Below are positions 35,982 through 61,100 of a stretch of 64,000 nt of DNA, piece by piece. Made by a program: the position numbers and the translations under genes. Within the stretch, counting starts at the first letter, position 1. Every line of letters begins with the position of its first letter. The notes beneath the pieces are model-generated. The model had not been told where the DNA came from. It saw nothing but the letters and a program-made list of their open reading frames with translations, and did no database searches. The DNA is taken from positions 20,684,417 through 20,748,416 of the forward strand of contig OY727101.1 in assembly GCA_963402885.1 (NCBI GenBank), read 5' to 3'. The stretch is from Antedon bifida (Eukaryota > Echinodermata > Crinoidea > Comatulida > Antedonidae).

Positions 35982-38900
35982 TTAAAGCTTGGCACATATT
36001 TCGAGCAACTGAAAAAAAGAATAAACATTTGACTGTACTTCCAGATCTTCCGAAAGCTACAAGTTGGTTTAATTCGACAAAGATTCGAATAAGATTATGT
36101 AATTTTGAATATATTCTATTGTAATTGTACAATGCCTAGGTTGTTTGAGAGCAATGCGTAAATCATTAGTTATTCTAACACATTCTAAAGGAATCATAAC
36201 CCTTCACTACATTGTAACTTTAACTATTACTTACGTCTTCAAGTGTAAATGTCAGAGATTTCTCATTTGCTCCACCGAGCTTTTCAAATTTTCCTGCATA
36301 ATAAAAAGATAGTAGAATGTTGATGGATGAATGAGGATGGATGGATGGACGATGGAAGGTTGGATAAGGATGGAAGGGATAAGGATGGATGATGAATGGA
36401 TGGATGGATGGATGATGATGATGATTGATGATGATGGATGGATGATGATGGATAGATGATGATGAATGGATGATGAATGGATGATGGATTATGGATGATG
36501 ATGGCTGGATGATGATGAATGGATGATGATGGATGGATGATGATGGATGGATGATAATGATGGATGGATGATGATAGATGGATGATGAATGGATGGATGA
36601 TAAATGGATGATGGATTATAGATGATGATGGGTGATGATGATGATGGATGGATGATGATGGGTGTATGATGATGGATGGATAGATGATGATGGATGGATG
36701 ATGAATGGATTAATGATGATGGATGATGGATTATGGATGGTAATATTGACAATGATGGCTGAATGATGATGATGGATGGATCTATGATGGTGAATGATGA
36801 TGATGGATGGATCTATGATGGTGAATGATGATGAATGGATGGATGATGATGGATGATGGATTATAGATGATAATATGGACAATGATGGAGGATGGATAAT
36901 GATAGATGTATAATGATGAATGGATGATGAATGGATGGATGATGTTAATAAAGAATGATGGATGATAATGAATCATGATGGATGATAATAGAAAATGATG
37001 GATGATGGATAATGATAAGGAATGATGGATGATAATGAATAATGATGGATAATAATGGATATTGATGGATGATAATAGACAATGATGGATGATGAGAATG
37101 ATAATGATGATGAGGATGATGAATGAATGATGATGATTGGATGATGGATGATGATGATTGTGAGGAGGATGATGATGATTCTTGAGTATAATTGATGGAT
37201 GATGTATGGATGATGGATAGATGATGAATGGATGGATGATGGATGATGATAAAGAATGATTGATGATAATGAATAATGATGGATGATAATCGATATTGAT
37301 GGATAATAATAGACAATGATGGATGATGAGAATGATTAGGATGATGAATGAATGATGATGATTTGGATGATGAATGGTGATGACTATGAGGAGGATGATG
37401 ATGATTCATGAGTATAATTGGTAGATGATGTATGGATGATGGATTGATGAATGGATGGATAATGGATGTTGATAATAATGGAGGAATGATGGATGATGTC
37501 GATGAGGCTGAGGAGGTTAATGATAATGGATGAAGATGACGATAAAGATGATGGATGAGTATTGATTAGTATGATGGGTGACGATGAGGAAGATTATGGA
37601 TGTGAGTAAGGATGGATAATGATGGATGTTGCTGATTGATGACGATGAGGATAGCGAGATATCTGTAGGCCACCGACAGAGTTCGTGCTTGATAGCTATG
37701 GCTTAGAGTCGAACCCAGGTAAGCAAGATATCTGATTCACACGGGCACTCGGGATCTTACAGTGTTACAACGCTTTCACACGGAATGTAAACACAAACAA
37801 AGATACAGATATAGGGCCCGAGCAACACACTTAATTCCATACTAAATGTGGGTGAATGGATTTCTGAAAACCTCAATTATTAATTGATTTAAAAAAGTTA
37901 TAACAATTTTTTAAATTCGATTTTTTCGGTTGTATGCTTACATGATGTTTTAGACAACCCGTGGAGTAGGTTGGATGAAGTATTGAAATCATTTTTAATA
38001 ATTTTAAGGGTTGAGTACGAAACTACATTAACGCCAAAAGGATTGTAGGCCTACGTACTTTTATCGACAGCAGCCATATGTACAGTGATGAGGATTATGT
38101 AGGCCTAGGCCTATATTATGTCATTACAGTATTATTTTACTAGGCCTACATTATTTTATAAGCTACCGTACCGTAGGCATATGTGTTTCATATTTGTACA
38201 TTATAATTCAACAAAATTTTCGTTCTTGTTTTCATATTTTCTTTTTTTCCACCAATCCATTTGAATATAGGCCTACAACACTGCAGATGAAATATTTGGA
38301 GGCCTAGCCATCCCGACGACACAACCCTATACCGACGACCGTGGGTATTTGTAAATTGGCAGACTGTACCGTAACATATAACCAGAATTTACCAATACCT
38401 AGTCTGGAATCCAGACGAAGTTTTGACTTAATATTAGTAAAAAGATAACTATTTTGGCACATATGGCGTTTCATATAATATATTCTATACTACTTGAGCT
38501 TGTAAACCCCGTCTGTGGAAACACATACAAGTCAGGTGGTTTAACACCAAGAATTCTTGGTTCATGCGATTATCCGGTTGACTAGTTTCAGCGGCATGCG
38601 ATTGGCTACTCTAAAATATTTTAATATTTTAGGAAATTTCAAAGATTCAACAATTAAGATGATGCGCATGCGATATGTTACGTTTAGACGATGTGGAAAC
38701 ACACGTGTGATTACCAAGGGGCGCGGATTTAGAGGGGTGCCGGGCCGCCACCCTCACCCCCCTTTTTGTAAAAATAAAAAAGAATTACTGACACGCGCCA
38801 CATGTACGTATTCACTTGCAATTTTTTATAACAAATAAGGAATAATTAACTTAAAACTAGTTACTTCTGTCATTCCATCTGATCAATTAAAAAAAATGTC

Positions 38901-41900
38901 CGTTAAAATAGACATCCAACCAATCGTAATCATCTAGGACGGAACTAGTAACACTGTAATGCGTGGGTAATTTGTGAATGACGTAGTACATACACGAGCC
39001 TAGATAGGGAAGATCATGGAACTAGTAACACTGTTATGCGTGGGTAATTGTGAATGACGTAGTACATACACAAGCCTAGATAGGATCATGGAACTAGTAA
39101 CACTGTTATGTGTGGGTAATGTGTGAATGACGTAGTACATACACGAGCCTAGATAGGGAAGATCATGGAACTAGTAACACTGTTATGTGTGGGTAATTTG
39201 TGAATGACTTAGTACATACACGAGCCTAGATAGTGAAGATCATGGAACTAGTAACACTACTGTTATGTGTGGCTAATGTGTGAATGACGTAGTACATACA
39301 CGAGCCTAGATAGGGAAGATCATGGAACTAGTAACACTGTAATGCGTGGGTAATTGTGAATGACTTACATACACGAGCCTAGATAGTGAAGATCATGGAA
39401 CTAGTAACACTGTTATGCGTGGGTAATTTGTGAATGACGTAGTACATACACGAGCCTAGATAGGGAAGATCTTTACTGCCGTTCATTGTGAGAGGAGGGG
39501 GAAGTCCGGTAATGTGTCATGATAATGTAACAAGCCAGAGATGAAATAAAATCACGAATACATTTAGCTGATTGTAGTTGTGGTAGTCGTCAGAAATTTA
39601 TTGACCGACATCACATAGGCCTACCTATTTCTCATTTGTAGTAGAGTGTTTCTTTGAATGAATAATTTTGTGTGTATTATAACAGCAAGTTCATTTTGGA
39701 TTTTCAGTAAATTGAAAAATCTGACAGCAAAGTTAGGCTTACCAATTTAAATTCAACACCTTAACTAATACCTCACTATTCAATTATTATATTATAATAC
39801 TATAAAATTGATTGCGTCATACGAAAATGGATTGATAGTAAAACGTAACAAAGATACGTTCTAGTCTGATTATTAGGTATCCATACATTGATGACGCGGA
39901 AGGTTATTTTTGTAGCGTTCCATTTAAAATAAATTTGTTTACAAAGACATATTTTGGCTGTGAAAGTCGTTAATTTCGTTGACGCAAGCATTACTTCTTT
40001 TACGAATTTTAACACTTAAGCTAAACAACAAACATTCAACAATGAATGATGCCCTGCAACTCTGACTCATCTATTCACAAATGAACTTTGTGTAAACAGA
40101 AATTAAAAAACGAAATAATATTCAATCCTTTTCCTTATGCATATTGCCAAAGCTAATAATCGATTTGTCCATAAATATTGCGTTTTTCCGGGGTTTTCAT
40201 AATTTAAGGCCAACTCATAATGTTACGTATAGTTTTGTATTTCGTGTAGTACCTTATTTATCTTCATTTCCGTACGTCCGTAAATATTAGGCCGAACTTT
40301 GAAATAACCGTGCTATACTGGTAACAGAGCAAAGTTTGCTTAAATCCATCCATCGGATCAATGTCATCCATATTTCATACATATCATCCCACCAATCATC
40401 TAGGATGGAACTAGTAACACTGTTATGTGTGGGTAATTTGTGAATGACTTAGTACATACACGAGCCTAGATAGTGAAGATCATGGAACTAGTAATACTGT
40501 TATGCGTGGGTAATTTGTGAATGACTTAGTACATACACGAGCCTAGATAGGGAAGATCTAGAAAGTAACACTGTTATGCGTGGGTAATGTGTGAATGACG
40601 TAGTACATACACGAGCCTAGATAGGGAAGATCTTTACTGCCGTTCATTGTGAGAGGAGGGGGAAGTCCGGTAATGTGTCATGATAATGTAACAAGCCAGA
40701 GATGAAATAAAATCACGAATACATTTAGCTGATTGTCGTTGTGGTAGTCGTCAGAAAGTTATTGACCGACATCACATAGGCCTACCTATTTCTCATGTAT
40801 AGTAGAGTGTTTCTTTGATTGAATAATTTTGTTTGTATTATAAACATTTGGATTTTCAGTAAATTAAAAAATCTGACGGCATAGTTGATTTAAATTCAAC
40901 ACTGTAACTATCCTGGACCCTCACTATTCAATTATAATATTATTATACCATAAAATGGATTGCGTCATACTAGCCTGGGTGCAGTACAAATTTTGCGGGA
41001 AAAAAGTATAGGAATTTTTTTTTTTCTGATAGAGTATATCATATAGAATGTCAGAAAAAATTCCCATCCGTGGGTCGTACACTCCATGATTCAATCACTT
41101 TTATGTTGGTTCGATGGGGTTTGCTATGTTTTTTTTAGGTTTGCGGGGGTTTTGCAGGATTTAGCAGTACCCTGTTTTTCCCGCCAAATTGGATGCCATA
41201 TTGGATTCTGGCATGGTGATGTCATCGTATCGACTTGATTCATCAACTACTATGAGAAGTAGTTATTAAAGTAAGCCTCTACTAATTTTAATCATTAAAA
41301 CACAACTGCTAGTAACAAAAACCGTTAATTGATTTTCCCTATCCCCTATACATAGGTATTTGTGTGTGTTAATAGTAATTTGTGTGTGTTTTATAAGCCA
41401 AAATTTAAAAGTGCCGTAAACATTTTTCCCCAAGACCCTGGGATGGGGATTTTTTTCTGACATTCTATATGGTATACTCTTTCAAAAAAACCCCAAAAAA
41501 ATTTTCCTATACTTTTTTCCCGCAAATGTGTATATTAACTGTTCTGCACCCAGGCTATATACGAAAATTGATTGATAGTAAAACGTAACAAAGATACGTT
41601 CTGGTCTGATTATTATTATGTCGGTCAATGAATTTCCTTTTTGAGGATCAATAAAAGTTATCTTATCTTATCTTAGGTATCTATGCAGTGATGACGCGGT
41701 GGAGTATTTTTGTAACGTTGCATTTAAAATTAATTTGTTTACAAAGAAATATTTTGGCTGTGAAAGTCGTTAAATTCGTTGACGCAAGTATTACTTCTTT
41801 TACGAATTTTAACAATTAGGCTAACAACAAAACATTCAGCAGTGAATGATGCCCTGCAACTCTGACTCATGCATTCATACATGAACTTTACGTAAAAATA

Positions 41901-44900
41901 AAATTCATCGACGAACGAAATATATTCAATTCATTTCCTTGTGCATATTGCCAAAGCTAATAATCGATTTGTCCATAATTATTGCGTTTTTCCGGGTTTT
42001 CATAATTTAAGGCCAAAACATAATTTTACGTATAGTTTTGTATTTCGTGTAGTACCTTATTTATCTTCATTTCCGTACGTCCGTGAATATTAGGCCGAAC
42101 TTTGAAATAACCGTGTTATACTGGTAACAGAGCAAAGTTTGCTTAAATCCATCCATCGGATTAATTTCATCCATATTTCATACATATCATCCCACCAATC
42201 ACAATGATCTAGGATGGAACTAGTAACACTGTTATGCGTGGGTAATTTGTGAATGACGTGACGAGCCTAGATAGGGAAGATCTGTACTGCCGTGCATTGT
42301 GAGAGGAGGGGGAAGTCCGGTAATGTGTCATGATAATGTAACAAGCCAGAGATGAAATAAAATCACGAATACATTTAGCTGATTGTCGTTGTGTTAGTCG
42401 TCGTCACATATCTATTTCTCATTTATAGTAGAGTGTTTCTTTGATTGAATAATTTTGTTTGTATTATAACAGCAAGTTCATTTTGGATTTTCAGTAAATT
42501 GAAAAATCTAACGGTAAAGTTAAGCTTACCAATGGTTTATTTAAATTCAACACTGTAACTAATCCCTCACTATTCAATTATTATATTATTATACTATAAA
42601 ATTGATTGCGTCATACGAAAATTGATTGACAGTAAAACGTAACAAAGATACGTTCTAGTCTGGTTATTAGGTATCCATGCAGTGATGACGCGGAGGGTTA
42701 TTTTTGTAACGTTGCATTTAAAATCAATTTGTTTACAAAGACATATTTTGGTTGTGAAAATCGTTAAATTCGTTGCCGCAAGCATTACTTCTTTTATTAC
42801 GAATTTTAACAATTAAGCTAAACAACAAACATTCAACAATGAATGATGCCCTGCACTCTGGCTCATCTATTCACAAATGAACTTTGTGTAAACAGAAATT
42901 AAAAAACGAAATATATTCAATCCTTTTCCTTATGCATATTGCCAAAGCTAATAATCGATTTCAAGTCCATAATTATTGCGTTTTGCCGGCGGTTTTCCAT
43001 AATTAAAGGCCAACTCAAAATTGTACGTATAGTTTTGTATTTCCGTGTAGTAGGCCTACCCTATTTTTCTTCATTTCCGTACGTCCGTAAATATTAGGCC
43101 GAACTTTGAAATAACCGTGTTATACCGGTAACAGAGCAAAGTTTGCTTACAACTTGAAACTTTTTGTGTGTGGGTATATATTACATGGGTTAATTTTCCT
43201 CTTGTGACCCACAGTCATGATGAATAAATGGATATGATGTATGGATGATGGATTGATGAATGGATGGATAATGGATGTTGATAATAATGGATAATGATGG
43301 ATGATGACGATGTCAATGAGGTTGAGGAGGATGATGGTAATGGATAAAGATGACGATGATGGATAATAGATAATAATGGAGGAGTAATGGATGATGTCGA
43401 TGAGCTTGAGGAGGATGATGATGAAGATGAAGATGACGATGACGATGAAGATGATGGGTGAGGATTGATGAGTATGATGGGTGACGATGAGGAGGATTAT
43501 GGATGATGGATAAGGATGGATAATGATGGATGTTGATGATTGATGACGCTGGCAAGATATCTGTAGGCCATTGGCAGAGTTCGTGCTTGATGGCTAGGCT
43601 TAGAGTCGAATCCAAGTAAGCAAGATATCTGATTCACACGGGCACTCGGGATCTTCACACGGAATGTAAACACAAACAAAGATACAGATATCGAAGTTTC
43701 TACAAGGTATCCATTTGTTGTAAGATGTGTGTAAATGTGAATTTGTGTACAAAGAGTAAGTGTTTGAATAGGCTACTTACTGATAACGTAGCGAATCTTT
43801 GAAACCATTAGGAAAAATTCGTCGTATGTTATCTTATTATCACTGCCAACGTACCGGCTTACTAGGTGCTGCAGTACAGCGTCACTGGTTTTAAGACCTG
43901 AAACAGAATCCGTTGAATAGTTTAAAAAATGGTTCTTCGTTTGCATTTAATAAACTGTAAATATTGCATACTATTTAAATATATATGTACCTTCAAGAAT
44001 GCCGCTTTTAAAAAGAGGCGTGTGCTTAAATAAATGTTATATACAATTATTAGTCATGTCGTACGAAAGGCATATCAAAGTCTTAATGAATGGTTGTATC
44101 CAATTAGAGGTTGAGGACTCGGTGATGAAGTGACGGGACGGGAGTTTAAAAAACCCGCGCTCCTACCCCCTGGTCACTACCGTAGATACCTGCTCGTGAC
44201 AATGCATCTCGTAACTCGCTCACATCAAGAGTTTTGCTTTCGTCCTTATCAGCTCGAAGAAACATCATCTGAAATCAGAAACAAAGTCTCAACATTTAGA
44301 CGATTCGCTAGCCATAATCACGTAGGCCTAAGGTCTGAGTCGAAGCTAAGTTCGAAAGGATGTAGCCATTTAAACTTGCCAACTTTGTATTGGTAATGTT
44401 TTACAACAAAATGGAGTTGAGTCAAATCCGTCTCATGTGCCACTTTTATTATTTTCTTTATTATTTATTACTTTATTAAAATGAATATGATATTTGACTT
44501 GGCAAAATAAAATGTTGTCAATTATCTACTTGCTTTGTTTTCCTGTTTATTTGTACGAGAACGTTCATGCTTTTTAAGTTATTGTCCTATATAATTTTGG
44601 ACGTTGATAGGTATCACACCTATCAGGAAAATTGATATATTGGTAAATTATTATATTGAAATCTCCAGTTACCCGTATCTTAGCCGAAATATTAAATAGA
44701 CCGCCCTCTGTCGCTCTACATTTTGCCATGTGTTGTATTTCGCTGTATCTATTATTATATTATGTATTGGTACTTACATCACAGTAAAATGACCATGCTC
44801 CAATAGCAATGCCTTCATTGACAGAAAGTTTCCGAGAATCGTCTTCCTATAGTTTTAAGCTTAAGGAATTTAGACAAAAAGTCGCCATCATCCGCTTGAC

Positions 44901-46925
44901 CGCGAGCCATAAATTGTGAACGCGGTATAAATGTTCTGTTTAATATAGAATAATTTTTATTGACATGACCAGAAACATACAGGAAGGGTAGCATACACTT
45001 TTTGCCGCTCTCAATTTTATTTATTTCTAGAGACAATAATGCCTGTATAGGCCTACTCTTGTCTTTGGATGATACGTTAACTCGTAAAATATGTTAACCT
45101 TTTTGATAGAGCATGAATTTATTCTCATATGATGATGGTAGACGATGATCGTGCCTACATTGGTTACAGTAGAGCCTGATCCGAATCATCCCAGTTTCTT
45201 ATGTCACATATTTTTGGAAAACTTTTTTTAAAACAAAAGGATACGTCAAACAGTGAGGCAATAGCTGCCGACGTCTCATGTGATATGTCAGAAGGAATGA
45301 TATCTATAAAAAATAATATTTTTTATTACATTATTATTATCTAGACATAGATGGTCTTTAGAAACTGTCGAATATAATTATGCCAAATATGACTTTACTT
45401 TAAATGTTGCAAAATACACAATAAAGAATTTATTGTGGTGGCGTACTAACACATATAACATACTTTCTCTTTTCCAACGTACAAAGAAGTTATCCAGTTC
45501 TGAGTTGTCCATCAACCCGTCCTGTAAGATGTAATTGGGTTTAACTGTTTACGACTGGAATGCATTATACTGCATAAACACAGCATCTTCATACCATTTA
45601 TCAAATTGACTAACATTTGCGTATCATTTTTTATAATGTCTATCTTACAACTTTATTAAATCATACTTGTTTTGTGGAACCCTTTCTCTGCTTCCAAGAT
45701 GTATTGCTTTGTAAATGTTTATATTTTATATAACAATAAATCAATTTAAAGCCAGAGTTAATGGATCTAAAGCAAATTAATATTCCTTATGCCACTACTG
45801 ACTTACCTCTCCAGCATATTCTTCAAATACTGATTGAATGATTTCAACCATCATTGGGTCAAGCGTTTTATTCTAGAATAAAGAACAACATTGTATGTAT
45901 ATAATTACGATCTAATAATAGCCACAATTCTGCTGCTGTGATTGGTGGGTTGCTCTTCTTGTGTTTTATTTTTGTTTCTGTTTATTTGTCTGAATACAGG
46001 GCTCTCTGGGAGAACAGTCTTTAACTTAAGAGGTCCCTAGTAACAATAAGAAATACATAAAAGAAAAATATGACTGTATTCACGGATGTTACTGTTTTGA
46101 ATAATATTATGACCAATGCATTTGGCCGTTTTGTAAACCTGATATGTATTCTTCAATTGTATATAGGAAAATACCATAATTTGTATAAGATCTTAAACAC
46201 ATGATATTGTTTTTACTCTGATCTTTAGTGAATTAAAAAATAATAAATGTAACGAACATGATTGTGATGCGGCATCACGAAACTTTCCTAATGCTCTGTC
46301 TACACTATCAAACTAGTTTGACAACAAAGTGTGATGTGTCCAAATATGATTATATCCATTTATGTGCACATTGATTTTTGTCACATAAAGTTTAATAGTG
46401 TAGACAAAGCTTAACACAAAAGCAACAAATACTTTTTAGAATACACCTACCTCTGATAAGGTTGGAGTGTAAAACGATGTGCTGTTTGCCGATCTAAAAA
46501 TGTATGAATACTCAAATCAAGCTAGATTTTTTTCGAGGTTTCCGTTATATAAATGCATTTACGGATATAGAAACTATCAAAATACTGTACATAATTGTGA
46601 ACTATTTCTAGTAGATATGCAAAAAATGAAAATCTACGAAAGATTATGCATTTAATCTGCAGACCATTTGTAGAGTATTACAAATTACATTGATGTTTTA
46701 GTTAACAATGAATACAATACTGTATACTTACTTGGTCTTTGAAAAAGCTCTGCAAAAGAAACGCAAAAGGAACGGAAATTCTTTGTCCTTTTCAAACGTT
46801 GAAGGAATGATGACGTAATTACCCGGACCAAGATCCATGAACAGAGCAGCTTCTCGTATTCCTAGTTTGTGTTCAAATGAATGTAGTGGTTTGTTTGTTT
46901 GAATGAACTCCATATCCACTGGACA
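35982..46925 (-). CDS. Calpain-like gene segment B: end of beta-sandwich domain + PEF domain, no protease exons
   Basis: Ten exons: 46732-46925, 46451-46493, 45807-45872, 45464-45521, 45245-45303, 44778-44846, 44190-44268, 43781-43897, 36235-36293 and 35982-36008 (TAA). Together they give 257 in-frame codons. Lengths and phases equal exons 9-18 of gene A, apart from the first two (194 and 43 bp against 203 and 46). The first exon encodes the end of calpain domain III (PSTFEKDKEFPFLLRFF). The rest encode a penta-EF-hand domain with calcium loops DEDDSRKLSVNE and DKDESKTLDVSE, ending LLEICAKL. No N-terminal or catalytic exons are visible between 46926 and 48080. It is either a 5'-truncated paralogue, an alternative 3' module for gene A, or a gene with an unrecognised first exon. 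Splice sites and frame are intact, so it does not look like an old pseudogene. Confidence 0.72.
36303..37660. repeat. GATG-rich minisatellite (GGATGGATGATGAT type)
   Basis: About 1.35 kb of degenerate GATG/GATGAT/GGATGAATG repeats with little other sequence, inside the large intron of segment B. The opposite strand reads as long Ser/His/Ile/Pro-rich ORFs, an artefact of the repeat. Confidence 0.9.
37430..37815. repeat. Direct repeat, left copy (GATG tail + unique 180 bp)
   Basis: Ends in non-satellite sequence containing GATATCTGTAGGCCA, AGAGTTCGTGCTTGAT and GGCACTCGGGATCTT, present again at 43228-43690 in the same orientation. The two copies bracket the 77-bp repeats and the R blocks. Confidence 0.8.
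38936..39470. repeat. ~77-bp tandem repeat, about 7 copies
   Basis: Unit GGAACTAGTAACACTGTTAT followed by GCGTGGGTAATTTGTGAATG, ACGTAGTACATACACGAGCC and TAGATAGGGAAGATCAT. Copies differ by small indels. The same unit recurs about three times at 40401-40630 and about once at 42211-42282, each time immediately before an R block. Confidence 0.9.
39471..40400. repeat. R block copy 1 (~0.93 kb)
   Basis: Begins CTTTACTGCCGTTCATTGTG and ends near ATACATATCATCCCACCAAT. Three direct copies lie in the B intron. It contains a minus-strand 71-codon ORF (39800-40015) that is also open in copy 3 but broken by insertions in copy 2. The encoded peptide resembles no family I know. Confidence 0.85.
40401..40630. 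repeat. ~77-bp tandem repeat, 3 copies
   Basis: Same unit as 38936-39470, placed between R block copies 1 and 2. The third copy is damaged (AGAAAGTAACACTG). Confidence 0.88.
40971..41558. mobile_element. Long-TIR MITE / foldback element
   Basis: Ends AGCCTGGGTGCAG and CTGCACCCAGGCT. Pairing continues through TGCGGGAAAAAAGTATAGGAA and GAGTATATCATATAGAATGT with their inverses, giving about 120 bp of imperfect inverted repeat on each side. The empty site in copies 1 and 3 reads GCGTCATACGAAAA, which fixes the insertion point; ATAC flanks both sides, a possible short target duplication. No transposase ORF. Confidence 0.82.
41614..41675 (+). mobile_element. 3' tail of a truncated non-LTR retrotransposon or SINE
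   Basis: Inserted into R block copy 2. Sequence AATTTCCTTTTTGAGGATCA, ATAAAAGTTATC and then repeated TTATC units. Short repeat tails of this kind typify CR1/L2-like LINE 3' ends; here only the tail was inserted. Comparison with the other R copies defines its limits. Confidence 0.55.
42211..42282. repeat. ~77-bp repeat unit, single copy
   Basis: One copy of the 77-bp unit, shortened inside (GAATGACGTGACGAGCC, missing TAGTACATAC), before R block copy 3. Confidence 0.85.
42283..43160. repeat. R block copy 3
   Basis: Third direct copy of the ~0.9-kb block, without the insertions of copy 2. Holds the 72-codon minus-strand ORF at 42594-42812, which parallels the one in copy 1. Confidence 0.85.
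43205..43690. repeat. GATG minisatellite and direct repeat, right copy
   Basis: GATG-type satellite (43220-43545) followed by the same non-satellite sequence as 37665-37815 (GATATCTGTAGGCCA to GATACAGATAT), with a small deletion. It lies about 90 bp from exon 8 of segment B, so the expanded intron is bracketed by direct repeats. Confidence 0.85.
46293..46410. mobile_element. Short MITE, ~118 bp
   Basis: Imperfect terminal inverted repeat: GCTCTGTCTACACTATCAAACT on the left against GCTTTGTCTACACTATTAAACT read from the right end. Lies in the second intron of segment B. No coding content. Confidence 0.65.
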
Positions 46926-47929
46926 CTAATGGAAAGTTGCTTCTCATAGAAACCGACGTCTATGATGTAGTAAATCCAAGTGTTGAATTAAATATGCTCA
47001 CAATAATTCATACACATGATTCACAGGCGACGCATGTTTTACACTACAATCATCGATTAACGATTGGCAACAAGTCATACATCAAAATCCGAATACCTCA
47101 AATGCCTACGTCACTTCGATATTGTCTTCACGTATTGTGGTCGTCATCGTTATCCGTCTAAACTAAAATTGACCAATTAACAATCAGTAGCATCGTAGTT
47201 TTTCGTCATATTCTGCCCGCAGTGTCTCCCGAACGAACAGCTAAGCAATCGGATGAACAGTAATGTCGTGATCGGATCACTCATAAGAATTAATTAGGTT
47301 TGGCTAAATATAGTCATGGGCCATACCATAATAGAAACCCCCCGGGGAGACTTCCAGAAATTCCTAAACAATGTTAATAACTTTTGCAAAGAGAGAAGCA
47401 CTTTTGATCGATAATTCGAACAGTCAAATTACTTGCGTTGCGTATATAGGTAGTGCGTTGCGTTGTGTCTATAGGTAGTGCGTTGCGTTGTGTCTATAGG
47501 GCGTTGCGTCAGAGAGCTTTCTCATGCTGTGTCTATAGGTAATGCGTTTATACAATTCGTAAAATTGCAGACACTTTTTATGTATTGTAAGCCTCCAAAT
47601 AACAACAGCCTGTACTGCAATACTTTACTGTATATTGATCAACAACATTTGCACGTTGCTATACAGAGGCATAGGCATACATAGCAACTGTAATTCCGTG
47701 ATTTTTCCATCAACACAGCCTAAAATGATGGTAAATTATATAAAAGTTACCCAAGTGAGGTTTTTGTATGTACTTTACAATACACGACACTAGCACGCAT
47801 GGTGCGGAATAAATTCATAATTCATTTATTAATTAAAACGTATTTGGTAAATTTCCAGATTGTGTAGTGAAGAGAGGACTACGAAGAATAATACGAAGTA
47901 AAGTGAGTTTGAAAAAACTTTCCATTATT
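46926..47929. other. Spacer between segment B and gene A
   Basis: I translated this spacer looking for missing B exons (calpain protease or early domain III) and saw none. It holds a short tandem repeat at about 47435-47505 (GTAGTGCGTTGCGTTGTGTC TATAG unit) and otherwise unremarkable AT-rich DNA. Confidence 0.5.
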
Positions 47930-47935
47930 TTTATT
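47930..47935 (-). terminator. Candidate polyadenylation signal of gene A
   Basis: AATAAA on the minus strand about 145 bp past the gene A stop codon. If used, the 24-bp tandem repeat at 48002-48077 would lie in the 3' UTR. Confidence 0.4.
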
Positions 47936-48001
47936 TCCAATTACGATATTACAATTACGATATATAGTTGCCTAAATTATTATATGCGTTGTTCTGCTAC
48001 T

Positions 48002-48077
48002 ATTTTAATCACGACCGATGACGTAATTTTAATCACGACCGATGACGTAATTTTAATCACGGCCGATGACGTAATTT
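48002..48077. repeat. 24-bp tandem repeat, 3 copies
   Basis: Unit ATTTTAATCACGACCGATGA CGTA, three nearly perfect copies, ending 4 bp before the stop codon of gene A, so inside its probable 3' UTR. Each copy holds a GATGACGTA (CRE-like) core. Confidence 0.85.
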
Positions 48078-48080
48078 GTC

Positions 48081-51000
48081 TTAAAGCTTAACACACATTT
48101 CCATCAGCTGAAAAGAAAAAGGATATCAAATTAGAAATATTCGAAAAAGTATTGGGTATAGGCCAATCATTTGACCCAAATCTCAAGTCATTTGATCTTA
48201 CGTCTGGCTGCGAGTACATACTATGTACATACCGGGTGTCGCAGCCAAACCCTTTGATTTCCGGAGCTCAGCATCCTGTAAGATTGCCTCTACTACAATG
48301 TGCTACAGTCGAAGAACTATTACGTATGGATAAACTATTACGTATGGATACATATACTTACATCTTCAATCGAAAGTGCCACAGATTTCTCGTTCGACCC
48401 ACCAAGCTTTTCAAATTTCTCTGCAAAGAATATAGATAACATTAAATTAATGTATGAAGTGGAATACCAATCTACACTGGTCGGGCTAATAGTGGAATCA
48501 CCAAGCGGCACACGGCGGTCGGGCTAATAGTGGAATCACCAAGCGCCACACGGCGGTCAGGCTAATAGTGGAATCGCCAAGTGTTATACGATGGTCAGTT
48601 TTATAGTAACTTACTAATGACGTATCGAAGCTTTGAAACCATGAGGAAAAATTCGTCGTATGTTATCTTATTGTCACTGCCAACGTACCGACTCACTAGG
48701 TGCTGCAATATGGTGTCACTGGTTTTAAGACCTGAAAGAGAAAGTAATATTATTTCTTATGCGTGTTTTCATATCTTTATAAAACATTAGGCCTACAGTG
48801 CGCAGGCCTACAATGCGCAGACCTATGAAAGGTTGAAGTCGTCGGCTAAAACATACCTGCTCGTGATAAAGCATCTCTCAACTCGCTCGCATCAAGAGAT
48901 TTACTGTTGTCTTTATCCGATTGTAGAAACGTCATCTGGAAAAAAATCAATACAATTTGGTTGAAATAGTAGTAGAACCCATAATGAATAAATAAGTAAT
49001 AAATTATGTTGTATACTTACGTCACAATAGAAAGACAACGCCCCAATGGCCATGCCTTCATTGACGGAAAGTGTTCGAGAATCGTCGTCCTATTAAGAAG
49101 GTTAAGTCTATTTAACAAAATAGGTTTTCACTAGGACGCAACGCAACCGAAATGACCAATGCTTGTGATTAGTCAAGTTATTTACGTTGCGTATGTCCGT
49201 TGTGTGACCCACGCTTTAGGCTAATATGCATTTAGTACAAAAAGGATACGTCATATAGAGCGGCGATAGCTGCGGAAGTTTCGTGTGAAATATCAGTGGG
49301 AATTATTTCTGAAAGAGAAAATAGATTGTATATTCAAACTTTATAATTGAAGTAACTAAGCTTTATATTGAATCCAACATTGCATTAAAAATCAATCTAC
49401 ATACGTTCTTTTTTCCAACCAACGAAAAAAGCATCTAGCTCCGAGTTGTCCATCAAGCCATCCTATAAACAGAAGAGTAAAACAGTATAAACAGGGAAGA
49501 CTGATATACTATAATTAGTGAAAATGTATGTCAACAGTCTTGTCTACTTACCGCACCGGCTTTTTCTTTAAAGAAAGATTCAATAATCGATGCCATCATA
49601 GGATCAAGATCGTCAAACTGAAATTGTAATATTTACAATACATTATAGAAGTATACACTATTAAGAAGTATAGGTTTTACTATTTATTTTGTTTCATTAC
49701 AATAATAAAGGTCCATAGCTTACATTTTTCGTTAATGTTGGTGTGTAGACGGTTATGCAACTTGCCGATCTAAAAAGAAATCACAATTTAGTAGAGACCA
49801 TATAATATTAAAACAATAGGCCTATATTATTACAGTAGCGCTCAATGTGAACGCAGGCTACAGAGCTCAACCAAATTAAGCTGTACGGATTATTTACAGA
49901 GTGGTAGGTGAAATCGCCCACCCACCGTCCATATTAGTCTATACTTACGCAGTCTTGGAAGAATATCCAGAGAAGAAACGCAACAAGAACGGAATTTCTT
50001 TGTCCTTATTAAACGTTGATGGAATGACGACGTAGTTACCCGGATCAAGAGTCATAAACAGAGTAATTTCTCGTATTCCCTCTTTGTGTACAAATGAGTG
50101 TAGTGGTTTGTTGTTTTGAAGGAACTTGCTGTCGATTGGAGAGTCTTCAGTCTGTGTACAAATTGGAAATTCATCAGTTAAATGTGTAGTTTCGCAAAGT
50201 TTCATTTTCGCAAAGTTTCATTTTCGCAAAGTTTCATTTTCGCAAAGTTTCATTTTCGCAAAGTTTCGTTTTTTGCAAAAGTTCGCAAAGTTTCGTTTTT
50301 TGCAAAAGTTCGCAAAGTTTCGTTTTTTGCAAAAGTTCGCAAAAGTTTCGTTTTTTGCAAAAGTTCGCAAAAGTTTCGTTTTTTGCAAAAGTTCGCAAAA
50401 GTTTCGTTTTTTGCAAAAGTTCGCAATGTTCGTTTTTTGCAAAAGTTCGCAAAGTTTCGTTTTTTGCAAAAGTTCGCAATTACCTTGTATACATCGAGAC
50501 CAATGTTATATCCATCCCACGAGGTTTCTTGTCTGCCTCTTCCAACTGCCATCAGAGAGACAACCACTAAATCACCATCATCGTCAACCTTTATATTGTA
50601 TTGGGGGTTGTTATGGAAATCTACAAGACACAAATACAGATATATCAATTTCGGTAAGTTTTTTGTTTTTTATATTGTAATTTTGTAAAAATTTCGGTAA
50701 GTCTACATTTTTGTTTTTTATATTGTAATTTTATAAATAAAACCGAAAGTAAAGTAATAAGCAACTGTTTTTGTAAATAAATTCCTATTTTGTAAAACTT
50801 TTCCAAAAGAAAAATCATAATATTAGTAGTATATAATTACTTGTGTCTGTAGAATATTCTAATAATATTTTAACGTAGGCTTACATGGTTCGTTTCATAG
50901 CAAAATCTAATGTTAAAAAAATTCTGCAGATCACTTACTTTCTTTGTTAGCCTCATAACGTCCCATTGCAGTCGAACCCTTCTGCCATTTATTGAAATGC

Positions 51001-53030
51001 TCGGTTACAGTCCATTTTGCCTCCTTTTCAGACAGCTCCGGTGGAACATGGAGAATCCTTAGCTCTTTGAATCTTTTCAGAACATCTTTGATATCCATCC
51101 TTAACAAGTATTGGAACAGTTTAAATGATACATCGAATATCATGAAAAAAAAAATAGAAATTAGGCCTACATGGTTTTATTTAATTAGTATACTATTATT
51201 TACCAAAAATCGCCATCCACTTTGCTTTTTATTTTAAACTCTTCCTTGATTTCGGCACTCAACGACTTCATCTCTTTCGACCTGAAATGTTCAATGTGGT
51301 TTTATTTTTAAAAAATGGTACACTAGCTTGATGAATCTTTCTTTCACCTTTCTTGTCGTGCGCAAGAAACATTGCGCGTTTAAGTAAAAATATTGTCGGA
51401 AAGACGCACACAGATATCTACTTACTCGTCACCCCAAGGTCCAGTCCATTCACAACGTTCTGTACTGAGAACTCGAATGATATTTGCCCAACACATAATG
51501 TTATTGTTGTTGTACATTACCTAAAAGATGGTAACAAAATAAGTACTTGGTCCATTTCATTTATTATTCAGTACAAAGATATCCCAATATTCAGTGTTGC
51601 CATTTCTATATAAATCTATTGAAACGGTATAGTGAGGATTTTGGTAAGGATAACCCAATACGTTTAGATATAGATATGTTAATACCAATGATTGGCTTAA
51701 ATATTTTATCAAGGCTGTAGCTTACTTTTTTCACGCTTCCATTTAGAATGTACAATGTTTTTGGTTTGAGACCACAATAATCCGAATGTCCGAAAGCTAA
51801 AGTAGCGGTCACTAGTGATCCAGTTTTTCTGCACATTTTCAATTTTGAACAAAGTGTAGCCTCTGTACAATCGGACACTTGTACTCTCTCAACAGTACCG
51901 CCAGATAGATCGATCAACGCTTCAGGAATCTCAAAAGTACAATCCATCGCTTCGTAACGCATTAATAGCCTTTAGAAAAAATGTGAATACAGTGATTCTG
52001 ATTGACAGTGATATGATCATGTTATAGAATATTATTTTCATTATTATAATCTAGGTTAACATTATCTAATTGATAGCTTACTTGGCCAATGCTTTTTCCA
52101 TGAGAGGAGCCCAGAATTCATCTTTTGATTGGCAGCGACCGAACATCAGTTTACCATCCAGTGTTGGCAGTCGATCGTCAATTACAATTTCATACCAGGA
52201 TCCAAATCTCCAGAATCTGAACCTAAAGATGCCTTTGTAGTTGTCTTTGAACGACTGTTCAGGACAGCCGTAGTTGAGTATTGACGGAACCAGTGTCATC
52301 CCAGCCAATGCGTTCATGAATGACGCGTTTGCTGTAGGAAAATTTAGTAAACACAAACGTTACATTGTATTTTGTTGCAAAGCGTTTTGCTCCATTACCT
52401 ATTGATTGTAAAATAACTTTATACTGAATTTATAAATTAAAGACACCAAAGTCTTACCAAGGCCTTCATCTCCTGCTAAAATAACCTCATTAAATGATGC
52501 TCCATCTTTAAAGAAGAAGGGTTCCTGCTTGCCTTCTAAGATTTCCTAGAGAAAACACACGGTTTTGTCAGTTTATTTTTGGATGGAATCCAAAATGTTA
52601 GGCCTAGTTAAATTGCAGCAGATTGAAATGTTCTAGCTAGCTTCTATGCCCTAGGCCGTTGCAAATAAAAATCGTGTGGGTTTCATGGAGTAGTTATTTC
52701 CACATTTATATTATAGTTACCGCCTAAATAAATTATGGCGAATATAATTGCATACCCATGAATATGCCTAGTACAACTTTTTAATGTTAGTTATTGTAAG
52801 TAGTACTATTTATATTGAATAGAAACGCTTACTTTTGGACGTAGCCACCTGATGTCATTTCGCCTCTCGTAGAAGTCAAACAAATATGTGTCTTCTTTGA
52901 CGAAGATAGACTCGTTACATGCTCCAAAACGGGGATCTTCGAATAGGTTATCCTTATTGTACTGACTATCCGCTATCAAATCAGCATACGTTTGGTTCCA
53001 AAGCGTGTTTACTTGTGTCGACACAGCCAT
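48081..53030 (-). CDS. Calpain A: full-length calpain with degenerate catalytic triad
   Basis: 18 exons: 52833-53030, 52458-52545, 52082-52331, 51726-51969, 51426-51520, 51204-51281, 50939-51099, 50484-50620, 49949-50151, 49724-49769, 49552-49617, 49405-49462, 49250-49308, 49021-49089, 48857-48935, 48615-48731, 48362-48420 and 48081-48107. All junctions are GT-AG and in phase; 677 aa, normal for a classical calpain. Order: N-terminal anchor, papain-like core (about 30-320; FEDPRFGA, IRWLRPK, IDDRLPTLDGKL, EWTGPWGDE), beta-sandwich domain III (about 320-490; NPQYNIKV, PSTFNKDKEIPF), PEF domain (about 500-677; loops DDDDSRTLSVNE and DKDNSKSLDASE). The Cys motif G-D-C-W reads N-A-S (Ala-98 at the Cys), the G-H-A-Y His position aligns with Thr-250, and the N-P-W-G Asn is Ser-279. 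Known calpains are cytosolic, calcium-activated proteases. This one should bind calcium but not cleave, as known for mammalian calpain-6. The ATG at 53028-53030 is the first in frame. Confidence 0.88.
48199..48249. mobile_element. Short hairpin MITE, copy in gene A intron 17
   Basis: ACGTCTGGCTGCGA and TGTCGCAGCCA form the arms around a short loop with TACATACTATGTACAT. Related to the element at 60056-60130, including the flanking TTTGATCTTA, which matches the inverse of ATAAGATCAAA there. Confidence 0.6.
48475..48598. repeat. ~38-bp minisatellite in gene A intron 16
   Basis: Three copies of a unit containing GGCTAATAGTGGAATCACCA and AGCGCCACACGGCGGTC. A diverged version occupies the equivalent intron of gene C (about 56325-56515). 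Confidence 0.8.
50191..50479. repeat. 17/27-bp tandem repeat in gene A intron 8
   Basis: About five copies of TTCGCAAAGTTTCATTT pass into about eight copies of a 27-28 bp unit, GTTTCGTTTTTTGCAAAA plus GTTCGCAAA. Open in several frames on both strands, giving low-complexity ORFs that should not be annotated. Fills nearly the whole intron between exons 50484-50620 and 49949-50151. Confidence 0.9.
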
Positions 53031-53111
53031 GCTAATACACGTGAAACTCGAATAAGTCCGATTGAAATAGGTGGGTCTATGGTAAACCGACAGGACGTGT
53101 TGTCTCGACGA

Positions 53112-53213
53112 AAGCAGCGTTAAGACTAAATGTACAAACCAAAACCAGGTCTATACGCCATGTTTCTGCAACTCCCGTGTTTTGATTGGATGAAATTGTA
53201 CCATGTGACACAT
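53112..53213 (-). promoter_or_regulatory. Conserved 5' flank of gene A, shared with gene C
   Basis: About 100 bp upstream of the gene A start codon aligns with 61501-61600 upstream of gene C. Minus-strand shared words include ATCCAATCAAA (CCAAT-box-like), ATTTGTACA/TTTGTACA and a CACATG E-box-like core. No clear TATA box. Retained similarity in noncoding DNA implies duplication of the promoter and perhaps functional constraint. Confidence 0.55.
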
Positions 53214-55153: not shown

Positions 55154-58100
55154 CTAAAGCTTGACACACATTTCCAACAACTGAAAAAGAACAAAAAGAG
55201 AAATGTGTATACAAGTAATAGACCACCCACACGAAAACATGTATTGACTTTCAACGTACGGTACAGTATTGTCACAATAAAGCAAGAACAACAAGTAAAC
55301 AATTGAAACACAGAACAAAAATAATAAATGTTTTAAAAAAAAGATATGAAAAGCATAAACCACCAAAATCATAGACCAGCTGAGACTACATGCGTCTAAG
55401 AAACATGGACGAATTTGGTTGTTAATTATTGATGATGTTTGATGATGGAGGTCTTTTAACCATGGCGGCCATTTTAATTTCAATATGGCGGCCACTAGGG
55501 GTCTTGCTTTTTGGTCTCTATTTGTTGAGATCATTTGGTAGCTGTGGGAAGTTGACACAAGTACACGATTCTTCTCTAAAATCAAACTTAGCCACTCTAC
55601 AGTACTAATCCTAGTAGATCATAGAGTTTCGTTTTTAGAACGTTTGTTATAGTGGATAATTTATCTATTTATTCCAAATTCGACACATTAATCGTTATTG
55701 GCTATGGCGTGTCTAGAGTTTAACATGGGCAAAGCCCAACATAGACTTAGTTATCTCTAAAGCCTGGTTCAATACAATTGCAATTGAAATATAAATATAT
55801 AAAAGATAATTATGAAATGTTATTTTGCACAAGCAAGTGAAAAGCAGTGTTGTAATAGTAGTCGTGCTAAAAAAAATAGTCAAAACAGAGGACGCTATAG
55901 GAAATTCACTCATGAATCTAAAATGATAATGTATTGTCCCCCACAAACATAAAAAATGAAGATCATTCAATAGGTAATTTTGCAGTTTAAAAAAATTTAT
56001 TAAAAAAACTATCATAAGAAAATATTTCATAAATAAACATTAATAAACGGTTAAATAGAAAATCCATTACATTGTCTTTTTTCAGGTAAAGAAATTAGTT
56101 TTCGATTCAATTTTAGGTAAAAGTTTTTATGTGACGTTAAAATAGCATATTTTTTATAACACATAAGTTATCGTCTATCGATATCGTCCTAGTATAAATA
56201 GGGCTTAAGTACACCGAATGATTTACTTACATCTTCAAGCGATAAGGTCACAGATTTCTTAGACGACCCACCAAGCTTTTCAAATTTCCCTGTAAGAAAT
56301 ATGTTAATATTATTTTCACTTACGCTGGAATCATCAAGCACCATAAAGTGGTCCTGCTTATAGTGGTATCGTACGTTATACGGTGGTCGTGTGAATAGTG
56401 AAATCAGTAAGTGTCATACGATGTTCGAAATAATGGTGGAATCATCAAGCGTGGTCGGACGAATAGTCAGGGTGTCATAGTGGTTGTGCTTGTGGAGGAA
56501 TCATCAAGATGTGAACTCACAGATTGAATAATTTGTCAGTAAACTTCTCTCTTCCACTATTACAATACTAAACAAAAATACGAAAGAATATAAGACATAG
56601 ATTAACTTACGAATTACATAACGAATCTTTGAAACCATGAGGAAAAATTCGTTGTATGTTATCTTATTGTCACTGCCAAGGTATCGACTGATAAGATGTT
56701 TGAGTACGGTGTCACTAGGTTTAAAACCTGAAAGAAAACATATTATAATTCATTTAATTAATCAAATCTGTATAAAAAGACGTTGGACATAGGCCTATAC
56801 ATAGCAATGTTTTAAGAATAAAGCTGCTTTCACATCGCACCCGAAGAAAAATATCATGGAAAATGGGTTCAGTGGTAAAACATAGGATCGTTCACACCAA
56901 ATTCGTACGATTTGAATTCGTACCACCTGATTAGAGCTCCGTATTCGTAGCGATGGATTAAGAAGCTACTTGTTTCCTGAAATCGTACGATTTTTTTCTT
57001 TTGTCCAAACAGCAGTGAGCATGAATGACCTCCCGTGACAACGGATAATTCGTGGTTGATGTGAAAGTACGCTGAACGTTCGCAATATTTTTCTCAGAAT
57101 CCGGGCGTGATGTGAAAGTAACTTAAGGCAGGTGTGGTTGTATTGAGGCCATGGGGACTTTCTTACCTGCGTTTGTTAAAGCAACTCGTAACTCGCTCTC
57201 ATTAAGAGATTTACTTTCGTCTGTATCGTCTATTTTAAACCTCTCCTGAAAAGTCAGTAGACATTTTATAAAATAATTCTTATCGTTCCAAGACAAACTA
57301 AAAGTGCTTGGACAGAACATACACAATTGTATAAACATATAGAACATTCCATATTTAAAAGTATTACATAAATCAAAATTCATTCATCACAAAGATGTAT
57401 ATTGTGTATTCTTAAAAAATGTATATTTTTAGCATGCTTGGGAAAATTGTACTCATTTATTTTATGTATAATAATATATATATAAATTCAAAAGCAAATT
57501 ATTAAAAAAAATGACCATACTGTGGGTATCTGTGGCTGGATCTCAATGGAGATACAACATAAAATAAGCAAAAATCTAAATCAAAACGGTAAATTAAAAT
57601 AGCAGAGCAAGTGAGAGTAGTTGGACAAAATTGAGAATATGAAGCAGACAAGCTCTGCTGAGTGGACTGGAATAAAGAAATAAAAACAGAGGCGGCACAG
57701 CTAGGCTGGTGAATAGAGGGTGGCGGAAGTAAGAGTAGAAAACAATGAAGATAGCTTGGTAGACAATTTAGAAATGTAACTAAAATACAACTCAAATGGT
57801 TGTTAATATTGGAAATTAAGTAGTCGATGAAATAATTTTACCGATCTGGGAGTGTGTTCCTAATGTTAAGTCCAAAAGGTTTTGTCGTTTTATAGCCAAT
57901 CTGCAGGCAGTACTGTTTTGATCTTATTTATACAAATATAAAAACATCCCATCTAAAAAAATCTTCTAACAAGAAATAAATTTTAGATACAGCAAGGAAA
58001 AGTTTATGTGCAAAATAATTTTAGTGAAATCATAGTGCAATATTGATAGTGTGCATGTACTGAATGTTGCATACTTACATCACAGAAGAAAGACAATGCT

Positions 58101-61100
58101 CCGATGCCTCTGCCTTCCACCACAGAAAGTTGTCTAGAATCGTCTTCCTATTTATAAGTTAAGTCAATCAAACAAGAAACTATGATTACTTTCAATAATA
58201 AGTGTATCGGTAGAATAATTAGTACTGGTATTGTCCGCATGAAAAATTAGTAAGAACGCCAAAGTTGTGCAGATTAGTTGTGGACTACTGTTTAATTAAA
58301 AATGAATTGATATGACACTGGTCCCAAGTTAAAAGAATGAAATCCCGAGAGACTTGATGAAAGCTAGAACAAACAATAGAGGCCGCTATAATCAATTTAA
58401 ATAAATATAGAGGACGCTATTATATTATTCTTAATACTGGTCAACCTCTTCAGTCCTAGAGGGCCAGCGTACAGGACTGTGATAGTGACTAAAGGATACG
58501 TCAAATATAGCGGCGATGACTGCTGAAGTTTCTTGTGAAATATCGGTGGCAATCATGTCTGAAAGACAAAATGCAAGACACATATAAGACGGTGTTGATT
58601 GAAGTACCGGTATTGTCCGGCCGCGAGGAAAATTTGTGTAAGCGCCAACATTGTGCAGACTAGTTGTTATAGAATTGAATAAAATTGTACTGTTTAAGTA
58701 ATTAATATGACACTCATTAGAAACTGGTTAGACAAAGGAAATTCTAGGAGACTTGATGAAAGCTGGAACAAACAATAGAGGGCGCTATAATCAATTTAAA
58801 TACATGTAGAGGGCGTTATTATAATATATCTCTTATTCAAAATAAATTTGTCCATAACGTATTTTGAGCAGTGCAAATGACCCCACGATTTAGACACAAA
58901 TTATATATATTTCGAAGCCTCACTGAATTATACAATAAATGAACAGCAACGGTTTCCGAAGTAATCTTGGTTGCTTTGATCATTTAGTCACCTTTTCATC
59001 AATTATAGAAAACTTTAGCATGTTATAATAATATTTATTTTGAACAACACTTTTTTAACAGTGGCTCACATGCATAGATGGTGCGTCCATACATATTACA
59101 AAATTTAAAACAAATTACTTAAAAAACTATACATAAACAATGGAAAATCAAAACTGAAACTAAAACATTTTTCATATTTTGATTAGCAACTAAAAACATA
59201 AAATCTGACTCCTCAACGCTATTACAAAACTTTTTTAAAACTAAAACTACACTAATACTGTACAACAATACTAATTTTGCGACAGCATTGGAAAAAACAC
59301 ACATTTTAAAATAAAATATATTGATGTAAAGAAACCATTGGATCATTTAAACAGTGACTGTTTATGGTTCAAAAATTTAAATGTTGCATTGGTATAAGAA
59401 TAATATAATAATAATACAATTTGTACAAGTGCATTAAAAGTATTTTATTTTTAAGTGTGCTGTCAGGATGAATGTTTGATGTACATTTGTCCTGTTTATA
59501 CAGGTTCCGTACCATTTTATGTTAGGTATATGCACGCTTGGTTGTCTGTGGCAGTGTTCAAACGAGTACATCATTATCAAATATCATAACCTAAATATTA
59601 CATTATGGCCCAATCCAATTATATTTAGAGGGTTACAAAAAAAATAAAATAAAATAAAAGATCAGTATAATTTTCGTACTAAAATCAAAATTGTATTATA
59701 TAGGCCTACCTTCCTTTTTCCAACCTGCAAAGAAAGCATCCAGTTCACGGTTGTCCATCTTACCATCCTATCAACAGGGTAGAGTAATTGTATTATCTTA
59801 ACTGGAATCACTTATAATTCATCAAAATAACGGAATATTATTTAATTAATATTTAATTATTTTATATGATATGTTTTTGCCTGTGAAAGCGTCTATGTGA
59901 ATACAGAACGCATAACGCACTGCAAGGTCCTTAGTTCGCATTAAATAAAATGCATTATTTGAATAGAGGAATTAAGTAAATGTCGCTAGTAACCCAATGG
60001 ACAGTATAGCAAGGCAATCTAACAACAGGATGCTAGTCTCTGGAGTTCAAATGGTTTATGTCTGGCTGCGACACCGCGCCGCATGTGTACATAGTACAGT
60101 ACTGTTGGTATTTGTCGCAGCCAGACATAAGATCAAAATACCTGTTACGAGTTACTATCTTGGCAAGGCGAGCTCATTGTTGTTGTATTGCCTTGGTTTT
60201 AGTAGCCCACGCTCGCTTTTGTACAGTGCAGTGTAATACTTACCGGACCGGCGTGTTCTTTAAAGAAATTATCAACTATTTTCTCATATGTACCATATGG
60301 ATCAATATCTTTAAGCTCAATCTAAAGTTATTTTATAAAGTTAAAAATAAGAATGGTTAATGTGTGTAGATAAGGGTTTTCGATAATTATATTTCCTAGG
60401 TGCTTAAAAATATATTGTCCCCTTGAAAACACACATTTTCTCTGAATATACAATCTTAATGTCACATAATTGGATCGAAAAAAATGTATTTACAAATGTA
60501 ATTTAAAAAAGCATACAAAATAGTCAAATTGACTGTGGAAGTCAATGAGTGTTCGGTTAAATTTAACTTTTTATTTTATCTCTTTATAAGTGAAAACATT
60601 TTTTATATAGTTTTAAAACTGCGAAATGGCATATTCAAAGTCTTTTTTAAAATTGATCTTTATCTTTCATTTTTTTTGGGGGAAAATCTTTAAATAAACA
60701 TTTCATAGTTCATACTACATTGGTTTATAATGTACAGCTCAACTTACATCCTTTACAAATTTCTCTTCGTATGAAGAAGAAGCAGAAGTTTCTTTTCTGA
60801 AAAAAAAAATATATATACTTAAGAATAACAAAACTATGGGACGTCCAGTGGATGAAGCTAACTTATAACATCATTTTGTCGAATAATAATTATTAGCAAT
60901 TTAATTGTTCTTTTCTTGTTGACTGCCTCAAAATCAAATCTCAAAGTATTAAATTATGTGAAATATAAACTAGAAAAAAGCATTGCTAGTCCTGCGCCTA
61001 ATGCTAAGCTACCTCTTCAATAATTTACCTTGATCAATTAATATGTGTTTATTTTTACCTCTAAATAAAACAAATTTTGGAGTTAATAATTAATATATTT

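Follow-up and report, generated by a model that had tools for sequence, protein, structure and literature searches.

Sequence evidence for a maintained calpain pseudoprotease and its triad-less paralogs in the crinoid Antedon bifida

What is a calpain gene for, once the residues that cut have been replaced and the rest of its reading frame is still intact? The question is raised by gene A, which lies in a 64,000-nucleotide stretch of Antedon bifida DNA (the window; C14:20684417-20748416). Such a gene might encode a protein that acts by binding, but it could also be a decaying pseudogene, an enzyme with a different set of catalytic residues, or the product of a faulty gene model. Answering the question depends on the gene model itself, on the related genes elsewhere in the genome, on the mode of selection and on the calcium-binding parts of the protein.

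Gene A and its active site

The gene was modelled as follows:

48081..53030, minus strand: gene A, an 18-exon classical calpain of 677 aa (open spliced frame, GT-AG everywhere, PF00648 and PF01067)
53030-52833, 52545-52458, 52331-52082, 51969-51726, 51520-51426, 51281-51204, minus strand: exons 1-6
51099-50939, 50620-50484, 50151-49949, 49769-49724, 49617-49552, 49462-49405, minus strand: exons 7-12
49308-49250, 49089-49021, 48935-48857, 48731-48615, 48420-48362, 48107-48081, minus strand: exons 13-18

The 2031 coding nucleotides and the stop codon are uninterrupted, with a GT donor and an AG acceptor at 17 of 17 introns. This agrees with the 18 exons, open frames and clean splice sites described in an earlier note on this DNA, which had placed the altered active site at 51426..52545, a span that matches exons 2-5 (52545-51426). 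That note had also called the gene a full-length calpain, a description borne out by Pfam profiles and by phmmer searches against the PDB. Peptidase_C2 (PF00648) scored 197.6 bits against a cut-off of 23.8 at residues 30-333, covering profile positions 1-295 of 297, and is followed by Calpain_III (PF01067, the C2-like domain III) at residues 354-477, with 76 bits against a cut-off of 21. Residues 13-667 aligned with a mu-like calpain (E 2.8e-69) and residues 12-667 with m-calpain; the C-terminus aligned through the PEF domain of calpain-1/2 and, at 514-674, with sorcin. The EF-hand models of Pfam, at 584-641, remained below their cut-off (23.2 versus 30). Pfam matched no C2 domain up to an E-value of 0.1, and the sole match of an NCBIfam profile search, far below its cut-off (18.4 bits versus 135), was disregarded. 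By its order of CysPc core, C2-like domain and PEF domain, the predicted protein belongs to the calpain family (C2), classical type. It matches the large subunits of calpain-1/2 (PDB 1kfu, 1qxp, 3bow) over the whole length and in the same domain order; unlike gene A, however, these are Cys-His-Asn proteases.

A separate feature of the locus, seen by eye, is a tandem array of ~27-bp units (GCAAAGTTTCGTTTTTT...) in intron 8, at 50190-50480 of the window. The intron measures 332 bp in gene A and 403 bp in its copy A', described below.

The positions aligned with the catalytic residues, with coordinates derived from the exon table, are:

52324..52326, minus strand: codon 98, GCG (Ala), at the catalytic Cys position (phmmer and MAFFT alignments)
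51756..51758, minus strand: codon 250, ACA (Thr), at the catalytic His position (MAFFT, and 2 of 3 PDB phmmer alignments)
51464..51466, minus strand: codon 279, AGT (Ser), at the catalytic Asn position (phmmer and MAFFT alignments)

In two MAFFT runs, whose rows included the paralogs, human calpain-2 and two triad-bearing calpains of the same genome, Ala-98 fell at C105, Thr-250 at H262 and Ser-279 at N286 of calpain-2. In all three of the phmmer alignments with PDB entries that were examined, Ala-98 occupies the Cys column and Ser-279 the Asn column, and in two of them Thr-250 is at the His; the best-scoring one slides, so that Ser-257 rather than Thr-250 takes the His position. In no alignment does gene A have a His there. 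The replacement of Cys, His and Asn by Ala-98, Thr-250 and Ser-279, as first read from the DNA, is thus upheld by MAFFT with calpain-2, and for the His by two of three phmmer alignments. The surroundings of the active site have changed as well: W106 of calpain-2 is Ser in gene A, the Trp-288 column holds either Glu or a gap, depending on the MAFFT run, and Leu stands in place of the oxyanion Gln, in a column that is unsure owing to a nearby insertion. With Ala-98, Thr-250 and Ser-279 in place of the Cys-His-Asn triad of an active protease, gene A falls under the definition of a non-peptidase calpain homologue, or pseudoprotease, its inactivity being predicted from sequence.

The least credible of the alternatives is that the triad loss is an artefact of the gene model and that a hidden exon holds the true active site: the models do rest on sequence alone, and a motif split by a splice site would escape a scan, but GDCW, DCW, GHAY, NPWG, NPW, NPYG and GHSY are absent as contiguous motifs from all six frames of window positions 47001-54000, and exons 3-5 align with calpain-2 and the paralogs with short gaps only. 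Looser patterns (CW, GHS, GHA, RHS, NPY) gave 13 matches in the same interval, none of them judged from its context to be an active-site motif.

The set of triad-less genes

A Peptidase_C2 search of the 315.6-Mb genome, in 27 contigs, returned at least 23 matches, which we grouped into 10 loci. Nine of these were modelled; the tenth, a single match at C9:27.93 Mb, was left out. Four of the nine modelled loci, all of them full-length, are without the triad, namely gene A and the following:

~119 kb from A: A', with a protein identical to that of A
C14:20818274-20838637 (coordinates by conversion): C''
C14:3629549-3633960: D

At the Cys, His and Asn sites, A and A' have Ala, Thr and Ser, C'' has Ser at all three, and D has Gly, Gly and Ser; the Cys- and His-site replacements therefore differ among A, C'' and D, with Ser at the Asn site in each. 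Neither C'' nor D has an internal stop, and both end in an in-frame stop codon. All four models have 18 exons, although the shared exon plan of C'' and D is partly a matter of construction, because A served as the guide to which A', C'' and D were fitted. The triad is kept in the other five modelled calpains, as shown by alignment for C14:15.84 Mb and C1:11.70 Mb and by motifs read in the models for C7:1.61 Mb, C10:6.84 Mb and C10:30.40 Mb; the models of two triad-bearing calpains, L041 and L042, are unreliable at both ends. A tree of the protease cores, built from 10 rows of which 9 are distinct, groups the dead genes in a single clade with 100/100 support and a long stem. Of six branches one is starred, one row (C10:30.4 Mb) is very long and the branches outside the clade are weak, so the tree speaks for the dead genes being one group but does not place them among calpains.

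Comparison within this clade bears on the idea that the gene A protein remains enzymatically active by means of other catalytic residues. Three points speak for it: the Ser at the Cys position of C'', the presence in gene A of His-240 (in 'GHSD') ten residues ahead of the usual site, and the discussion of brown algal calpains as possibly using shifted residues (PMC13413365). The dead lineages do not agree on any such set, however, differing at the Cys site (Ala, Ser or Gly) and at the His site (Thr, Ser or Gly). Furthermore, no Cys occurs at residues 80-110 of A, C'' or D. Between residues 200 and 300, His-240 is the only His of gene A; since the only one in C'' is at 259 and D has none, His-240 is not a conserved catalytic His. 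An enzyme of altered design is accordingly rated very improbable.

Two further observations were made in passing. A stray exon-3-like fragment (NASFMNALACLTLV...) lies at C14:20837369-20837449, just upstream of exon 3 of C'', and is perhaps a relic exon duplicate. Additionally, contig C27 (15,844 bp) looks mitochondrial, with, at C27:1-2500, a cytochrome-b-like frame on the minus strand and a stretch resembling small-subunit rRNA on the plus strand. Table 9 translates stretches of the cytochrome-b-like frame as GSNNPTG and ENFIPANPL, the conserved forms, and tables 2 and 5 give GSKNPTG and ENFMPAKPL. AAA for Asn together with ATA for Ile characterizes the echinoderm/flatworm mitochondrial code; the codon use of C27 fits the echinoderm code, and an echinoderm source is likely.

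Selection and the duplicated neighbourhood

Between A and A', 4 of 2031 coding bases differ, and all four differences are silent. At the synonymous rate ~15 nonsynonymous changes would be expected, and the Poisson probability of finding none is 2.8e-7. In the 17 introns, once 364 gap columns are removed, 55 of the 2885 aligned bases are substituted; the contrast with the coding sequence has a Fisher p of 3.9e-9. Over the longer distance between A and C'', the NG86 method gave dN 0.150 and dS 0.745, a ratio of 0.20, and the pairwise GY94 model an overall omega of 0.23, with 2dlnL of 146.2 against omega = 1. By domain, omega for this pair was 0.274 in the core (p 8.5e-12), 0.275 in the C2-like domain and 0.135 in the PEF domain, each rejecting omega = 1. 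Against D, omega was 0.092 for A and 0.102 for C'', values that are rough because silent change is likely near saturation at such large distances (t 2.6-2.8). In these two comparisons the three domains were nearly equal (0.082-0.099); since PEF is the most constrained domain in A/C'' only, any special weight on it comes from one pair. The dead core, by comparison, is constrained in all three.

These data leave little room for gene A being a decaying pseudogene, so young that it still looks intact. The gene does sit within a duplicated block that carries a truncated sister copy, gene C; yet none of the 4 coding differences between A and A' is nonsynonymous, omega to C'' is 0.23, and C'' and D are themselves free of internal stops and properly terminated. 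We regard decay as most unlikely. The claim of the earlier note that the gene is maintained as a pseudoprotease finds support in the silent-only changes between A and A' and in the omega between A and C''.

The neighbourhood of gene A contains the following features:

55157..60315, minus strand: gene B, a PEF-only neighbour upstream of A, from spliced alignment
60315-60244, 59767-59710, 58558-58500, 58147-58079, 57245-57167, 56727-56611, 56289-56231, 55180-55157, minus strand: recognised exons of gene B
35985..46925, minus strand: gene C, a copy of C'' truncated at its 5' end, running from within exon 9 to exon 18 and without the protease core
46925..46926, no strand: candidate breakpoint of a ~119-kb duplication holding A'/B' and A/B

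Gene B resembles a calpain small-subunit module. No protease core was matched for it by tblastn with four calpain queries in a 260-kb joined stretch, and no start codon could be assigned in the 305 bases upstream; two substitutions, neither of which changes an amino acid, separate the 516 coding bases of B from those of its copy B'. Gene C differs from C'' by one silent and one Ala/Thr change across 765 coding bases. The DNA match between C and C'' stops at 46925 and that between the downstream flanks of A and A' starts at 46927 (converted coordinates), and the 260-kb stretch contains no runs of N. The junction at 46925..46926 is the probable breakpoint of a tandem duplication, or else a switch between assembled haplotypes, and gene C is probably left over from one or the other. 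Because the 119-kb shift and the break of gene C in exon 9 suit either case, A' may be either a duplicate or a falsely kept haplotype; the selection result holds for both. Gene conversion or allelism could likewise account for the low divergence of A and A', though neither would remove the surplus of silent changes.

The large intron of gene C (43781-36293) shows, at both ends, a minisatellite-like sequence, CATCATCCATC, at 36.2-37.6 and 43.2-43.6 kb of the window on the minus strand, which produces open frames, up to 207 codons long, that are spurious.

By motif scan, selection tests and residue comparison, the pseudogene, the hidden-exon artefact and the alternative catalytic residues were all judged unlikely. 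Taken from the genomic sequence, the reading of gene A as a maintained classical-calpain pseudoprotease is one in which we place high confidence.

Calcium sites, proposed action and known inactive calpains

If the gene A protein does not cut, it may still respond to calcium. Of the core calcium-site residues, taken from the list given in PMC4631099, A, C'' and D retain Gly91, Glu175, Glu292 and Asp299. In all three, Asp96 has become Glu, Glu323 Asp and Ile89 Lys, with the neighbouring Asp321 kept; Gln319 is Lys, Glu or Thr across the dead genes (Lys in A), in a column where human calpain-2 itself has His. In the PEF domain, EF2 (DDDDSRTLSVNE) and EF3 (DKDNSKSLDASE) are the same as calpain-2 at positions 1, 3, 5 and 12, but at position 6 Arg or Lys replaces the usual loop Gly in A, C'' and D. 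The PEF calcium loops had been described at first as canonical; this holds for the acidic positions of EF2 and EF3 but not for the lost Gly6, for EF1 and EF4, which are atypical by eye, or for the EF-hand scores below the Pfam cut-off. Calcium binding by the gene A protein is likely from these residues.

A role as a calcium-sensing partner is made probable by the replacement of the triad while selection preserves the rest. The protein would bind calcium and change shape as calpains do, and would then act by binding, most likely through PEF dimerisation with an active calpain or with a PEF-only subunit such as that of gene B. In this way it could regulate, position or compete with an active calpain, or hold substrates uncut. 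Because the large and small calpain subunits pair through their EF-hand domains (PMC3315469), the A protein could dimerise with itself, with B or with an active calpain. In favour of such a partner are the adjoining PEF-only gene and the retention of calcium-site residues and of the PEF domain while the catalytic positions vary among paralogs; against it stand the Ile89 to Lys change, the altered Gln319, the loss of Gly6 from the EF loops and the sub-threshold EF-hand profiles. On balance, we give a calcium-responsive non-proteolytic partner acting via its PEF domain about an even chance. Gene B as that partner is a guess, because its start codon was not found.

The chief competitor concerns this step of the mechanism only: the protein might instead resemble calpain-6 and, without proteolysis, serve as a scaffold or bind the cytoskeleton, working through the dead core and the C2-like domain and not by pairing. 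Taken alone, the dead core also shows selection (0.274 in A/C''), it is as constrained as PEF in the comparisons with D, and calpain-6, without the active-site Cys, stabilises microtubules (PMC13413365, PMC3563603). Calpain-6 ends in a C2 domain, however, according to PMC4631099, whereas gene A keeps PEF, and we hold the scaffold to be possible but the less likely of the two. More speculative than the PEF-mediated partner, and in our estimate improbable, is that A, A', C'' and D co-evolved with gene B to form calpain heterodimers that are gated by calcium and entirely without proteolytic activity. If true, this would be a calpain-based signalling module without an enzyme.

Calpains without an intact triad are already in print, classical ones included, and for that reason gene A is not the earliest known case of triple loss. 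Across eukaryotes, some or all of the three catalytic residues are reported to be substituted, with many such variants in unicellular species (PMC3563603), and 344 calpain-like proteins among 1234 from UniProt miss at least one triad residue (PMC3315469). The C. elegans CLPR proteins and other triad-less calpains share with gene A a core without an intact triad, but the CLPR proteins are atypical calpains without EF hands, unlike gene A (PMC3315469). Closer in kind is the 'Classical calpain family C', a classical PEF group whose members in Drosophila, Daphnia and Branchiostoma are reported to have lost critical catalytic residues and to be probably inactive (PMC5650170). Drosophila calpain C is described as having the His replaced and Asp for the Asn (PMC4631099); here, by contrast, four genes of a single genome have substitutions at Cys, His and Asn alike, although the two are likened by description only. 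Human calpain-6, in which the Cys is Lys (PMC3731218), is likewise a non-proteolytic calpain retained by evolution, and differs in its terminal C2 domain (PMC4631099). Under the name calpamodulin it is described as lacking the His as well as the Cys, in wording that suggests the Asn too (PMC4631099); the proposal that triad loss in gene A exceeds that of calpain-6 is therefore doubtful. None of the papers listed in our literature searches dealt with triad-less calpains in echinoderms.

What is added here to the known triad-less calpains is a multi-gene dead set together with evidence of selection. With four of nine modelled loci lacking the triad, counting calpain genes in a genome of this kind gives too high a figure for proteases. 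The four genes provide a natural set of dead calpains with the same exon plan, in which several calcium-site residues are kept, the active site is dismantled and selection is measurable, and they are relevant to the roles that calpains may have other than proteolysis.
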